A DNA stretch of 51,488 nucleotides from an uncultured Clostridia bacterium (GTDB lineage: Bacteria > Bacillota_I > Bacilli_A > RF39 > UBA660), in contig CAOJDX010000008.1 of NCBI GenBank assembly GCA_948433435.1, positions 1-51,488 on the forward strand, read 5' to 3'. A program made the position numbers and the translations under genes. Each line of letters opens with the position of its first letter. Position 1 is the stretch's first letter. Of this stretch, positions 14,809-35,632 are shown one piece after another. The notes under the pieces were generated by a model that was not told the origin of the DNA, made no database searches, and saw only the letters and a list, made by a program, of their open reading frames with translations.

Positions 14809-15185
14809 GCAGTTTTTAGCAGAGCATGGTTTAATGTCCCCCTCTTTCCTGCTCTGCCCTGCTTTTACATGGAAGCAACACGCTTTCGCCACAGCTCTTT
14901 GACAACTGAATAAAGCAGACAGATACGTTTGTGAGATAGAGAGCCACGGGGACTGTACGCCACGACCTTTCCAAAAGAAAGCGAGCGACCCACGCAGTGA
15001 TCCGAGAGCGACTGTTGGAAAAGTCGTTTTGCCACGACCTATCCTCACAGAATAATGATACGTCCGCATGGTGCGGTTCTGCCCACAAGAATGGGAATAG
15101 TTGAGATACTAATGGAGCTTTCCAAAGCCGTCTGTCTGCTTATGTAACTTATAAATAGACACACAGTAAAGGGGGTGCATAGATT
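14809..15185 (+). other. long non-coding leader with structured core before xis
   Basis: About 375 bases without a gene. A TTGACA box lies at 14899-14904, with no good -10. A GC-richer core follows: CGACCTTTCCAA (14963-14974) pairs with TTGGAAAAGTCG (15015-15026) at 11 of 12 positions, and GCCACGACCT is repeated at 14959-14968 and 15031-15040. The second copy of that repeat could pair competitively or bind protein. GGGGGTG ten bases before the xis ATG is the ribosome binding site. It may hold a regulated leader for xis-int or Xis/Int accessory sites; it could also be the remains of an Orf10-type gene. Confidence 0.5.
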
Positions 15186-15467: not shown

Positions 15468-16658
15468 ATGTCTAATGTAAAACGAAAAGACAGTAAAAAT
15501 CGCAATTTGCGTAATGGAGAGAGCCAGCGAAAAGACGGAAGATACGTTTATAAATATACCGATATATACGGAAAGCCACAATTTATCTATTCTTGGAAAC
15601 TTGTACCGACAGACAAGACACCTGCTGGAAAGCGTGATGATATTTCATTGAGGGAAAAAGAAGCACAGATAAAAAAAGACCTTAACGACAGTATCGACAC
15701 AGTCGGCGGTAAAATGACAGTCTGCCAGCTTTACGAGAAAAAGAACAGCCAAAGAAAGAACATCAAGAGGGCTACCGAAAAGGGACGACAGTATCTTATG
15801 AACGCTCTGAAAAATGACCCATTGGGTATGAGGGCGATTGATACTGTTAAGCAGTCGGACGCTAAAGAATGGGCTATCAGAATGAGTGAAAAAGGATATG
15901 CCTATAAAACAATTGATAACTATAAGCGTTCCTTGAAAGCGTCATTTTACATGGCGATACAAGACGACTGTATCAGAAAGAACCCATTTGAATTTAAACT
16001 AAGTGATGTTCTGGAAGATGATACAGAGCATAAAGTTATCCTTACACCAGAGCAGGAAGAACGCCTGCTTGCCTTTATGGAAAAGGATAAGATTTACAGC
16101 AAGTATTATGATGAGGTTGTGCTTCTGTTGGAAACGGGACTTCGTATTTCTGAATTTTGCGGACTGACGACGCATATTGATATGCAGAACAAAATACTCA
16201 ATATAGACCACCAGTTATTGAAAGACAGCGAAATCGGCTACTATATTGAAACGCCAAAAACCAAAAACGGAAAACGGGAACTTCCATTGACAGAACGGGC
16301 TTATCAAGCAATCCAAAGAATACTAAAGAACAGAGGAAAGGCACAACCGCTGATTGTAGGTGGTTACAGCAATTTTCTATTCTTAAACCGTGAGGGCTTG
16401 CCTAAGGTTGCAGGAAACTATGAGGGTATGGTGCGAGGGCTGATTAAGAAGTATAACAAATATCACACGGACAAGTTACCGAACATCACACCACATTCAT
16501 TCAGGCATACTTATTGTACGAATATGGCAAATAGAGGAATGAACCCAAACACCCTGCAATATCTCATGGGACACGCTAACATAACCATGACACTTGGCTA
16601 TTACGCACACGGTACATTTCAATCTGCAAAAGCGGAACTGGAAAGACTGGCTTGTTAA
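15468..16658 (+). CDS. int: Tn916-type tyrosine integrase
   Basis: A 396-residue integrase, close to the 405 of Tn916 Int. The N-terminal arm-binding domain (about 1-75, GESQRKDGRYVYKYTD) is followed by the core-binding domain (about 85-180) and the catalytic domain. Catalytic residues are R226 (GLRISEF), the H343/R346 pair (HSFRHTY), H369 (GHANITM) and the Tyr in LGYYAH (378/379). It catalyses staggered cleavage at the element ends with little target specificity beyond A/T-rich bent DNA, which fits its position inside a phage capsid gene. GAAAGGAG at 15450 serves ATG 15468. Confidence 0.97.
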   Translation: MSNVKRKDSKNRNLRNGESQRKDGRYVYKYTDIYGKPQFIYSWKLVPTDKTPAGKRDDISLREKEAQIKKDLNDSIDTVGGKMTVCQLYEKKNSQRKNIKRATEKGRQYLMNALKNDPLGMRAIDTVKQSDAKEWAIRMSEKGYAYKTIDNYKRSLKASFYMAIQDDCIRKNPFEFKLSDVLEDDTEHKVILTPEQEERLLAFMEKDKIYSKYYDEVVLLLETGLRISEFCGLTTHIDMQNKILNIDHQLLKDSEIGYYIETPKTKNGKRELPLTERAYQAIQRILKNRGKAQPLIVGGYSNFLFLNREGLPKVAGNYEGMVRGLIKKYNKYHTDKLPNITPHSFRHTYCTNMANRGMNPNTLQYLMGHANITMTLGYYAHGTFQSAKAELERLAC

Positions 16659-22284: not shown

Positions 22285-22391
22285 ATCTATCACCTCCAAA
22301 CTTATCAACAATTGATGGAATTTTTTCATTTTGGGCATTTTTTACACTTTTAGGTGGCAGGTAGGTTTTGAAACACAGATAAAATTCCAAA

Positions 22392-22817
22392 TTAAAAGGC
22401 AGGGGGGATGGTTAATGAGCCAACCTCTTGCCTTATTTCTTCAAAATTACAATTAAAATCTATAAGTTTATATAAAATATTTCTTGGTATCATATTGTTA
22501 TCTGCCAACTTATGATGATAACAACATAGAGTTATTAAGTTATCATCATCTAATCGCCTACTAAAATCTTCTTCTAGTGGTGTTATATGATGAACTTCAA
22601 GTTTGTTAAAGTTTAATACATGAGTAGTTTCATAGATATTTGCTAAACAACATCTACACAAATGTTTATCTCTTTCTCTTATATCTTCACTCTTTTTATG
22701 CCATTTATTGGTGTTTCTAAACTTATCAGCATCTGTTAAACCTCTTACTTGCTTATTCTTATAACAAATCTTGTTAAAATCGTGTATCTTTCCACACCTA
22801 CTGCAACTTTTCAACAT
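22392..22817 (-). CDS. HNH endonuclease of the packaging module
   Basis: A 141-residue HNH nuclease. It has an N-terminal zinc ribbon (CSRCGK), a Cys pair in CRCCLANI, the catalytic HHITP and the final His in LCCYHHKLAD. In HK97-like phages this gene sits directly before the small terminase and its product works with terminase in cutting the cos site. AAGGAGATATTTT before ATG 22817 is a good ribosome binding site. Upstream are the interleaved inverted repeats, a terminator and the second late-promoter-like element. Confidence 0.9.
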   Translation of the reverse strand: MLKSCSRCGKIHDFNKICYKNKQVRGLTDADKFRNTNKWHKKSEDIRERDKHLCRCCLANIYETTHVLNFNKLEVHHITPLEEDFSRRLDDDNLITLCCYHHKLADNNMIPRNILYKLIDFNCNFEEIRQEVGSLTIPPAF

Positions 22818-22841
22818 AAAATATCTCCTTACCTAAAACAA

Positions 22842-22942
22842 AGCATAGCACCTTTTTCTATGCTTATATGAGAGTATAAAGGAGATTATAGAACTGAAAA
22901 GAAAATAAAGGTGCTATAAAGTTTTATTATACTCTCATATAA
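22842..22942 (-). ncRNA. interleaved inverted repeats: candidate pseudoknot RNA or cos region
   Basis: Four blocks occur in the order b', a, b, a' on the plus strand. Block a (22864-22879) and a' (22927-22942) are perfect 16-base complements; b' (22845-22855) and b (22907-22917) are perfect 11-base complements. The pairs cross, so they can only coexist as a pseudoknot in RNA. A third hairpin, AGCATAG (22842-22848) with CTATGCT (22858-22864), competes with both. The stretch is non-coding, lies in the leader of the HNH-terminase transcript and ends about 25 bases before the HNH start. It could act as structured RNA or, as DNA, as a terminase-recognition (cos) site. Confidence 0.45.
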
Positions 22943-22946
22943 ACAT

Positions 22947-22974
22947 GAAAAAAGACAACTAATTTTGTTGTCTT
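22947..22974 (-). terminator. intrinsic terminator in the packaging leader
   Basis: On the minus strand AAGACAAC-(7)-GTTGTCTT is followed by further T, giving a run of six. It sits about 45 bases downstream of the -10 in copy 2 of the 38-bp repeat, the same spacing as the terminator after copy 1, although the stem sequences differ. Confidence 0.8.
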
Positions 22975-22992
22975 GATTATATACTTCTATAA

Positions 22993-23226
22993 CTACATTA
23001 TATCATTAATAGAGTGTGAAAAATGTGAAAGTTTTATCTCAAAATCTAATATATTTAATTCTTTTTTATTATTTTTTGTTATTTTTTTAATATCTTGATT
23101 TTTATTAATTTTATTTTGACAATTAGAACATAAACACTTGCCATTAATACCTTTTAAATAATCAAATATGCCACATTCATCACATTTATCTTTATAACTA
23201 TTCTTGCTTTTTTCTTTTGATGTCAT
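22993..23226 (-). CDS. small zinc-ribbon phage protein
   Basis: A 77-residue basic protein with one CxxC...CxxC zinc ribbon (CDECGIF then CLCSNC). The remainder is Lys/Asn-rich. No specific family is recognised. The open frame extends to 23247, but ATG 23226 gives a smaller overlap with the gene before it. Its last dozen codons coincide with the 38-bp promoter-like repeat, so the C-terminus may be constrained by that element rather than by protein function. It is the last gene before the late unit. Confidence 0.6.
   Translation of the reverse strand: MTSKEKSKNSYKDKCDECGIFDYLKGINGKCLCSNCQNKINKNQDIKKITKNNKKELNILDFEIKLSHFSHSINDIM
22996..23033 (-). promoter_or_regulatory. late-promoter-like 38-bp element, copy 2 (packaging side)
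   Basis: Identical to 20010-20047 except for one base. On the minus strand the tandem CTTTCACA / TTTTCACA motifs precede TGA-TATAAT (TATAAT complement at 22997-23002). It overlaps the last codons of the small zinc-ribbon gene ending at 22993 and faces the HNH-terS-terL unit. An activator-dependent late promoter is the best explanation. Confidence 0.6.
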
Positions 23227-25703: not shown

Positions 25704-26333
25704 TCAACTACCTAAATAAAAACTCTTTCTTTTATCATTTTTATCATTATCATCCCAACAAATATATATCAAAGTAACTCTTTCGCTTGAATGATTTAAC
25801 ATTTCTTTTAAACCAATAATATCTCCAGTTTCTTCATAATATCTTCTAGCAAAGTATTTTCTTAATGAATGGCAACCAACAGGGTATGATACTTTAACTT
25901 CATCTGCTAATTCTTTAATTATCTGCCATGCTCTTTGTCTTGTTAAAGGTTTATTCATACCTTTTCTACTCTTAAATAAGTATTCACCATCAATTAAGTT
26001 ATTTCTATTAATATAATTAATAATATCTTTGTACAATGATGGATGCAATTCAAATGATTGCTCTTTATTCGTTTTAAATTCTCTAATATAAATACCACCA
26101 TTTTTAAAATAATCTACTTTTAATTGAATTATATCTTCAATTCTAAATGCTAGGTTCATACCAATAACTAAAATCATGTAATTTCTATCCCATAAATATT
26201 GTTGTTCTTTATTACTATCTTCTTCTGCTTGATTTCTTCTTTTCTTACATATAACAAGCATATTATTTATATCATGTTCTTTAAAAGGTTTAACTGTCTT
26301 ACGACCAAAATTGATTCTATATCTTCTTGACAT
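25704..26333 (-). CDS. second phage tyrosine recombinase (catalytic domain type)
   Basis: A 209-residue protein consisting mainly of a tyrosine-recombinase catalytic domain. The first Arg is in LAFRIEDIIQL, followed by HSLRKYFARR (HxxR), a His in MLNHSSERVT and Tyr in LIYICWDD. It lacks the N-terminal arm and core-binding domains of the true integrase at the rpsI end, so it is unlikely to integrate the phage. Such short recombinases occur in the early-to-late interval of many Bacillota phages and may resolve multimers or act as accessory regulators. ATG 26333 is used rather than GTG 26345. Confidence 0.8.
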   Translation of the reverse strand: MSRRYRINFGRKTVKPFKEHDINNMLVICKKRRNQAEEDSNKEQQYLWDRNYMILVIGMNLAFRIEDIIQLKVDYFKNGGIYIREFKTNKEQSFELHPSLYKDIINYINRNNLIDGEYLFKSRKGMNKPLTRQRAWQIIKELADEVKVSYPVGCHSLRKYFARRYYEETGDIIGLKEMLNHSSERVTLIYICWDDNDKNDKRKSFYLGS

Positions 26334-26338
26334 ATATA

Positions 26339-26665
26339 TCACCACTTACCATTAATTTTGATATTATACTGTTCAATTCTTTTCATAACTTCGTTAGCAG
26401 ATAACGAACCAACTACACAATCAAATTCTTTTTCATAATCTGTTAATAATCCTTTTATTTCAAGTTTATCTTCTGTATATCCAAATGTTCCAACACCCTC
26501 AACAATAGAAATTATTTTATTTTCCATATTTGGAACTACTATCTGCCAACTTTCTATAAATCTATTAGGTTTAAGTGTGTAACATCTATTGTAAAATTCA
26601 AAGGGTATATTTGCCTCACTTAATAAATGCTTTAGTTTAAATATTTCATTGCAATCACACTTCAT
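26339..26665 (-). CDS. hypothetical phage protein, 108 residues
   Basis: The N-terminus MKCDCNEIFKLKHLLSEANIPFEF and the middle WQIVVPN resemble small phage proteins of unknown role often found beside PAPS-reductase-like genes. GGGAGA at 26675-26680 fits ATG 26665. It overlaps the 3' end of the upstream PAPS-reductase-like gene by 11 bases, so the two are co-translated. Confidence 0.6.
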   Translation of the reverse strand: MKCDCNEIFKLKHLLSEANIPFEFYNRCYTLKPNRFIESWQIVVPNMENKIISIVEGVGTFGYTEDKLEIKGLLTDYEKEFDCVVGSLSANEVMKRIEQYNIKINGKW

Positions 26666-34017: not shown

Positions 34018-35057
34018 AACTTCCAAATAAATACGGCTCTATTGAAAAATTATCAGGAAATAGAAGAAAACCTTATAGAGTAAGAAAAACTATTGGATGG
34101 GATGAAAATGGTGTGCAAAAAAGACAAACAGTTGGTTATTTTGAAACAAGACAACAAGCATTACAAGAGTTAGCATTATTTAATGAAAACCCTTATGATA
34201 TTGATGCTAAAAAGATAACAGTTGAGGGACTTCACCAAAAATGGAAAGATGAAAAATATCCTAAAATTGCAAAGAAAACACATCAAGTATATAACATGTG
34301 TTGGAATTACTGCCAAGATATAAAAGATATGCCATTTGTCGATGTTAGAATAAATCATTTACAAGCAATAGTTGATGGCATGGGTGATAAATGGAGTGCA
34401 AAAAAGGCATTTAAAATTATGTGGCATCAAATGTATGATTATGCGATTAAAAATGATATGAATGTTAAAAAATATTCAGAATACATCGATATAGGCAAAA
34501 AAACAACTAAATTAGTACGAATACCATTTGAAGAAGTAGAAATAGATAAGTTATGGGAAAATGTCGATAGAATGGATTTTATTGATACTATACTGATACT
34601 TATTTATACAGGTTTAAGAATAAGTGAATTATTAGATATAAAAATTGAAAATGTTCATATTGATAAAGAATATATGGTTGGTGGCATGAAAACAGAAGCA
34701 GGAATAGATAGAGTAATACCACTTCATAAAAGGATAATACCACTAATTCAAAGATATTATGATAAAGCAGTTGAAGTTGGGTGTGAATACTTAATAGTTA
34801 ATTCACTAGGTACTCAAATGAAATACTCTAATTATAGAAGAGAAAAATGGGATATCATGATGGAACAATTAGAATTTTCAAAAGAACATAAACCACATGA
34901 CACAAGACATACCTTTGCTACTCGTATGGATAGAACACCTGCTAATAAATTATGCATTAAAAGAATTATGGGACATGCTAGTACAGATATAACTGATAAG
35001 GTTTATACACATAAAGATATAGAAGAACTTATAGAGGCAGTTAATTATTTAAGATAA
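34007..35057 (+). pseudogene. phage tyrosine integrase, probably frameshifted at codon 4-5
   Basis: From 34020 the frame reads LPNKYGSIEKLSGNRRKPYR..., the usual arm-binding N-terminus of these integrases. It then covers core-binding and catalytic domains with R in TGLRISELLD, HDTRHTFATR, MGHASTD and the nucleophile Tyr in DKVYTHKD. That frame has a TGA at 34005-34007 and no start codon before GTG 34113. The ATG at 34007, with AGAGGA at 33997-34002, is one base out of frame; removing one A from AAAA (34016-34019) restores [11 protein letters not shown]. The gene is therefore frameshifted or uses +1 recoding. A shorter protein from GTG 34113 would lack the arm-binding domain. Confidence 0.82.
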
Positions 35058-35206: not shown

Positions 35207-35632
35207 CTATCGTTTTGAAAATTGTGGAGCACGACGAGCCTTTTTTAATCCTGGTTTCTTACGTTCTTTCTTACGAGGATCACGAGTAACAAAACCAGCT
35301 TTCTTTAAAATTTTTCTATAACTGTTATCAGAATCTGCAGGTGTTGTCTGGTCATATTGTAATAAAGCCCTTGTAATTCCTAAACGAATTGCTCCTGTTT
35401 GACCAGAAAAACCTCCACCAGATACTTTTGCATTAACATCAAACATTTCTCTTGTTCCAGTTATTTCTAGTGGTTGAGTTAAATCCATTACCAATACTTC
35501 ATATGGTAAATATTCATTTACATCATGTCCATTTACTGTTATTTTTCCTGTTCCTGGAGTTAATGTTACACGAGCAACACTCGTTTTTCTTCTTCCTGTT
35601 CCAGTATAAACCTTTTTACTATCTTTTGCCAT
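35207..35632 (-). CDS. rpsI: 30S ribosomal protein S9
   Basis: A 141-residue S9, a little longer than the usual 130 through an N-terminal extension. [14 protein letters not shown] starts the conserved part, and the C-terminus [14 protein letters not shown] carries the tail that reaches the P-site tRNA. It follows rplM with overlapping stop and start (TAATG). The stop is next to the phage integrase end. The S9 frame is intact, so any insertion at this locus preserved the gene. rpsI 3' ends are known integration sites for several Gram-positive elements. Confidence 0.97.

Follow-up and report, generated by a model that had tools for sequence, protein, structure and literature searches.

SAM-II and preQ1 riboswitches are H-type pseudoknots that hide the ribosome-binding site, and the put RNA consists of two hairpins. 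In phage T4, a pseudoknot 5′ of the Shine-Dalgarno sequence (SD) of gene 32 nucleates autogenous repression, and this operator is missing in some relatives (PMC535899). In HK97-type phages with the gene order HNH-terS-terL, the HNH protein promotes cutting by TerL at cos (PMC9410871). Little is known of how phages control the timing and dosage of their packaging nucleases, and a leader pseudoknot opens the question to simple reporter fusions.

We analyzed a window of 51,488 nt (the whole stretch of DNA under study) in which the leader of a prophage packaging operon carries two crossing inverted repeats. Judged from sequence comparison, this element is a real, conserved RNA pseudoknot leader of the packaging mRNA, and it seems to be an accessory regulatory RNA. 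It is a rare and uncatalogued phage leader RNA of uncultured gut Bacilli, and its natural gain, loss and variant forms provide built-in controls. By layout, its closest working analogue would be the T4 gene 32 operator, with which no sequence relation is expected. Like the T4/RB69 gene 32 leader (PMC535899), it is a phage mRNA leader with an H-type pseudoknot 5′ of the SD, stands before the gene of a nucleic-acid-binding protein and is patchy in relatives. The T4 pseudoknot, however, spans about 28 nt, has short stems and neither a 16-bp helix nor a competing hairpin, and its repressor is known (gp32). The likeness to SAM-II and preQ1 lies in one distant leader, L132, in which the second pseudoknot helix contains the SD; in contrast to these riboswitches, the element is without an Rfam match, its helix A is far longer, no ligand core is seen and the gene encodes a phage nuclease. 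A search of Rfam, including the EAR, SAM-II and preQ1 families, gave no match at the gathering score, and up to E 5 it returned two plant microRNA models, far below the cut-off.

Layout of the leader and geometry of its repeats

In 5′ to 3′ order on the minus strand, a late-type promoter is followed by a U-tract hairpin, the 5′ strand of helix A, the 5′ strand of helix B, a complement of the SD, the 3′ strand of helix A (A′), a hairpin H with the core of B′ as its loop, the SD and the HNH gene (Table 1). After HNH, also on the minus strand, come terS, terL and the portal, protease and capsid genes. In the proposed H-type pseudoknot, helix A would hold an apical loop, and the first part of this loop (B) would pair with a segment (B′) immediately 3′ of A. 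Helix A comprises 16 bp, or up to 25 bp with its outward extension, and closes an apical loop of 40-69 nt; in five relatives, the extension forms nine of nine pairs (G.U counted). The 3′ end of the pseudoknot lies 19-25 nt before the HNH start codon in all leaders except L132.

Table 1. Positions of the leader features and neighboring sites in the window
Feature	Position	Strand	Remarks
Probable late promoter	22997..23030	-	-10 TATAAT 23002-22997; TCACA direct repeats 23028-23024 and 23019-23015; no -35 box
Leader hairpin with U-tract, intrinsic-terminator-like	22948..22974 (hairpin 22974-22952)	-	Also kept in element-less relatives
Helix A outward extension, 5′ side	22943..22951	-	Partner 22855-22863; one C.A mismatch in the window
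Helix A, 5′ strand, TTATATGAGAGTATAA	22927..22942	-	Perfect 16-nt pair with 22864-22879
Helix B, 5′ strand, ATAGCACCTTT	22907..22917	-	Within apical loop of A; perfect 11-nt pair with 22845-22855
Complement (8 nt) of HNH SD, ATCTCCTT	22879..22886	-	TCTCC-type block in 6/8 close leaders
Helix A, 3′ strand (A′), TTATACTCTCATATAA	22864..22879	-	
Alternative hairpin H, AGCATAG / CTATGCT	22842..22864	-	Loop = B′ core; present in all 8 close leaders
Helix B, 3′ strand (B′), AAAGGTGCTAT	22845..22855	-	
HNH SD, AAGGAGAT	22823..22830	-	
HNH endonuclease, 141 aa	22392..22817	-	Packaging operon gene 1; Pfam HNH, E 4e-5
Candidate cos region, outside the element	22340..22410	-	CCCCCCTGCC ... AAAACCTACCTGCC in HNH-terS gap, all close relatives

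The initial annotation of this DNA had singled out two perfect inverted repeats that cross, and both are present where it placed them. Among perfect inverted repeats with a span up to 130, the 16-nt pair is the longest of the 51 kb, and its crossing with the 11-nt pair is the sole combination in the window in which both pairs have at least 10 nt. Its claim that such an arrangement is rare also holds: of 300 dinucleotide shuffles of the whole window, two contained a pair of at least 16 nt, and a crossing combination of two pairs of at least 11 nt likewise arose in only two (0.7%). Folding of the element on the minus strand gave z = -5.1, and helix A can be extended outward to 28 nt at 89%. Hairpin H, reported as a third structure incompatible with both helices, is present but excludes only one of them: it shares 22845-22848 with B′ and so precludes full-length helix B, whereas it overlaps helix A at base 22864 only and is compatible with it. 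The perfect 8-nt match between the SD and its upstream complement has p 0.04 in the window. Neither strand has an ORF of at least 20 aa that runs through the element (a single plus-strand ORF touches its edge only), which disposes of a coding explanation, and further copies of the repeats in the prophage, as expected of a repeated operator, were not beyond chance.

Two features of this region were recorded in their own right. The succession of a promoter and a U-tract terminator-like hairpin within ~40 nt, directly before HNH (22948-23030 here; leaders L008, L028, L038, L039 and L134), is present even in phages without the pseudoknot. It resembles the PR'-tR' layout of lambda, and by this analogy hints at antitermination of the late operon by some factor. 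The 5′ strand of helix A (22927-22942, minus strand) also contains a tiny ORF, AUG-AGR-GUA-URA (M-R-V-stop), kept in seven of the eight close leaders, where all changes are synonymous or swap one stop codon for another; it lacks an SD, and its ATG is ACG in L025.

Conserved pairing in relatives and a possible translational operator

HNH-based searches found element-bearing leaders in L024, L004 (partial) with its near-twin L005, L006, L007, L010, L025 and L026; L011 has the same leader as L007, and L013 (genome G010) the same as L025. A terS-based search added the distant L132, whose leader recurs in L133, L141 and L142. This gave nine distinct full leaders, the window included, most of them from one HNH clade and with few double changes or independent events. 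Searches of IMG/VR and of 386 + 385 genomes, by pattern and by model, located the element in HNH leaders only, which speaks against a mobile or multi-copy element; two weak genome hits (L158 and L159) proved unrelated. INPHARED phage records contained no DNA match to the element, and HNH relatives there are <50% identical. Four related leader types (L008/L009, L028/L029, L038 and L134) are without the element. They retain the promoter, which is conserved whether or not a leader carries the element, together with the U-tract hairpin, and HNH is kept as well, so the element is not essential. L008 falls, with weak support, among element-bearing HNH genes in the tree, a position that suggests loss of the element in this lineage.

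Helix A is the best conserved part of the fold. In eight leaders, 99% of its cells were paired, with one change on both strands (TATAA/TTATA to TATGA/TCATA), and L132, with TTATATAAGAGTATGA / TCATACTCTTATATAA, supplies a second both-side change (both G-C/A-U). Across all nine leaders, 99.3% of cells were paired, with one mismatch in L025, and the covariation score was reached by 0 of 500 shuffles and lay above all slid controls. The block from A′ to H is near-invariant, as against 55-75% identity to the window at HNH 4-fold sites in element-bearing relatives (except the near-identical L024).

Helix B is continuous over 10-13 bp in seven of the nine leaders. Its pairing has a single mismatch in the close relative L024 and persists in L025 as a version shifted by one base (TAGCATCCTTT/AAAGGGTGCTA). 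In L132, the homologous segments TCTCCTTT and AAAGGAGA form a rebuilt 8-bp helix B in which both bases of two pairs have changed (A-U to U-A and G-C to U-A); the register in L007, L025 and L132 was set by hand, and the compensatory test in B, with few events, rests on it. In each of the eight close leaders, the apical loop pairs with B′ better than shuffled loops do (z -3.2 to -5.8). The B′ strand of L132 is the SD of HNH itself, and in this leader the loop complement of the SD has p 0.008, although the pairing is not significant by energy alone (p 0.21). In the window's form, the SD lies outside helix B, just downstream of B′, and we rejected SD/anti-SD pairing as the main signal in this clade, where its energy is no better than that of shuffled loops.

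Departures from Watson-Crick pairing in A, H and B, read in the HNH sense, comprise 8 distinct G.U cells and 1 A.C cell (one-sided p 0.02). Wobbles of this polarity indicate that the active form is RNA and not a DNA site. A large pseudoknot in the HNH/packaging leader, as first annotated, is thus borne out by these wobbles together with the compensatory changes in A and the paired changes in B of L132; compensating changes in both stems of relatives had been named as its check, and this check came out positive.

Because they use the same strand, the A extension, H and B are in competition. Computed energies are -23 to -33 kcal/mol for A plus its extension, with -10 to -17 kcal/mol for full B, and -20 to -25 kcal/mol for A plus H, with about -8 kcal/mol for a 7-bp kissing contact; before any pseudoknot penalty, extended A with full B is predicted to beat A plus H with the kissing contact. 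Because L132 is without hairpin H, the core that is always kept is A and B. Full A and full B would coexist only if B packs beside A, since helix A has 16-22 bp and loop 1 only about 8-14 nt. In the leaders of L006, L007 and L025, the motif CTTTCTGTGT (the 5′ side of the A extension) recurs after B as a further partner for GCATAGAAAGG.

We favor, with a probability of roughly one half, the reading in which the pseudoknot acts in cis, as an operator that governs translation of the HNH nuclease gene. It is the identity of B′ and the SD in L132 that points to control of translation. In the L132 form, the pseudoknot would hide the ribosome-binding site directly, so that one lineage would have a conserved pseudoknot over the ribosome-binding site of HNH, the cos-cleavage helper. 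B′ is shifted off the SD in the window's form, where hairpin H would compete with the A extension and B; switching between the folds, or binding of a protein to the pseudoknot, would then set translation of HNH and of the coupled terS. The observations cover sequence and position of the element, its conservation, the compensatory changes and the strand polarity; we infer that A and B form simultaneously and that translation, with whatever regulator, is the controlled step. It would make sense for HNH to be dosed apart from the capsid genes, since HNH promotes TerL cutting at cos in HK97. A more specific version, which we regard as doubtful, is packaging feedback: HNH, terminase or another late protein would bind the pseudoknot and shut off translation of HNH and terS once the machinery suffices, the two states being hairpin H and the fold of A extension and B. 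If true, a packaging nuclease would have a dedicated RNA regulator of its own, in phages of uncultured hosts.

Alternative explanations of the element

The main competitor to a translational operator, itself unlikely, is a role in RNA processing or stability, in which helix A (16-25 bp), as a double-stranded RNase III site or as a block to 5′-3′ decay by RNase J, would fix the 5′ end and lifetime of the packaging mRNA, with B and H aiding folding. The unusual length and perfection of helix A (22-25 bp with the extension in five relatives), the folding z of -5 and the tolerance of G.U in helix A suit such a role, but it needs neither the conserved helix B nor the near-invariant sequence from A′ to H, and it leaves unexplained why B′ is the SD in L132.

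The element might instead act as a nascent RNA that, in the manner of put or EAR, makes polymerase ignore terminators in the long late operon. It shares with HK022 put and Bacillus EAR the place of a structured RNA near the start of a long operon, here just after the late promoter and the leader terminator. In the intact relative G010, strong intrinsic terminators precede the tail genes within the late operon. HK022 put is a precedent for an antitermination RNA (PMC9378689). This reading is nonetheless improbable. The leader terminator lies upstream of the element, no EAR or other Rfam family matches, and strong terminators stand behind the tail-tube gene both in G010 and in G380, a phage without the element whose terminator is equally strong, leaving no association between element and terminator.

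Another proposal holds that two folds, A with H and the A extension with B, never coexist and form a kinetic or ligand-driven switch. H is kept in all close leaders and shares bases with B′ and the A extension; the competing pairings are kept in all variants, and a base change in L026, AGAGG, pairs in both. The initial annotation had likewise proposed two alternative folds, and H against the A extension and B is possible and conserved; its suggestion that refolding controls read-through is unlikely, the terminator being upstream of the element. We consider such a switch quite improbable as the function of the element, because L132, with no hairpin H at all, indicates that switching is not its ancestral or universal role.

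Least probable, and very unlikely in our judgment, is a DNA site (cos, a terminase or HNH binding site, or a cruciform) whose repeats are protein-binding half-sites. The strong invariance of the A′ and H sequences would fit it, as would the cutting at cos with HNH help in HK97-type HNH-terS-terL phages (PMC9410871); the RNA-sense polarity of the wobble-type changes does not. The cos reading that the initial annotation offered for 22842-22942 finds no support in position and distribution, since the element lies upstream of HNH and is absent from L008, L028, L038 and L134, phages without it having the full HNH-terS-terL set. The element shares the gene neighborhood of cos in HK97 and LL-Ku, but HNH separates it from the candidate cos region. 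The HNH of Lactobacillus phage LL-Ku is homologous; cos of this phage is annotated at record positions 1-11, and its HNH ends 95 nt before the record end, placing cos downstream of HNH. A C6-rich, cos-like block between HNH and terS is conserved in every relative, including those without the repeats; in the candidate region at 22340-22410, the conserved blocks are CCCCCCTRCCTTTTAAT, AAAACCTACC and AAAAATGCCYAAAATGAAAAT.

A group I intron or mobile RNA was dismissed, with no Rfam intron match and the element confined to HNH leaders; although L062, in which Rfam identifies a group I intron, contains a 20-nt match, this lies on the opposite strand and is presumably among the chance hits expected from that scan.

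Prophage context

The prophage looks truncated. Behind the capsid gene, its late operon stops at a second integrase, of the Tn916 type, and the tail genes missing here are present in G010. A tyrosine integrase of the prophage adjoins rpsI (35207-35632); the integrases lie at 34113-35057 and 15468-16658, both on the plus strand. A third tyrosine-recombinase catalytic domain, of 213 aa, is encoded at 25704-26345 (minus strand) in the middle of the early region, and the Rfam pemK RNA (RF02913) matches at 15052-15115 (plus strand), upstream of the Tn916-type integrase. In the intact relative phage of G010, a diversity-generating retroelement with a reverse transcriptase and Avd lies at L122:1043-3065, accompanied by two identical GGGTGGTGTTCGCCC hairpins (positions 2396 and 3118 of L122).
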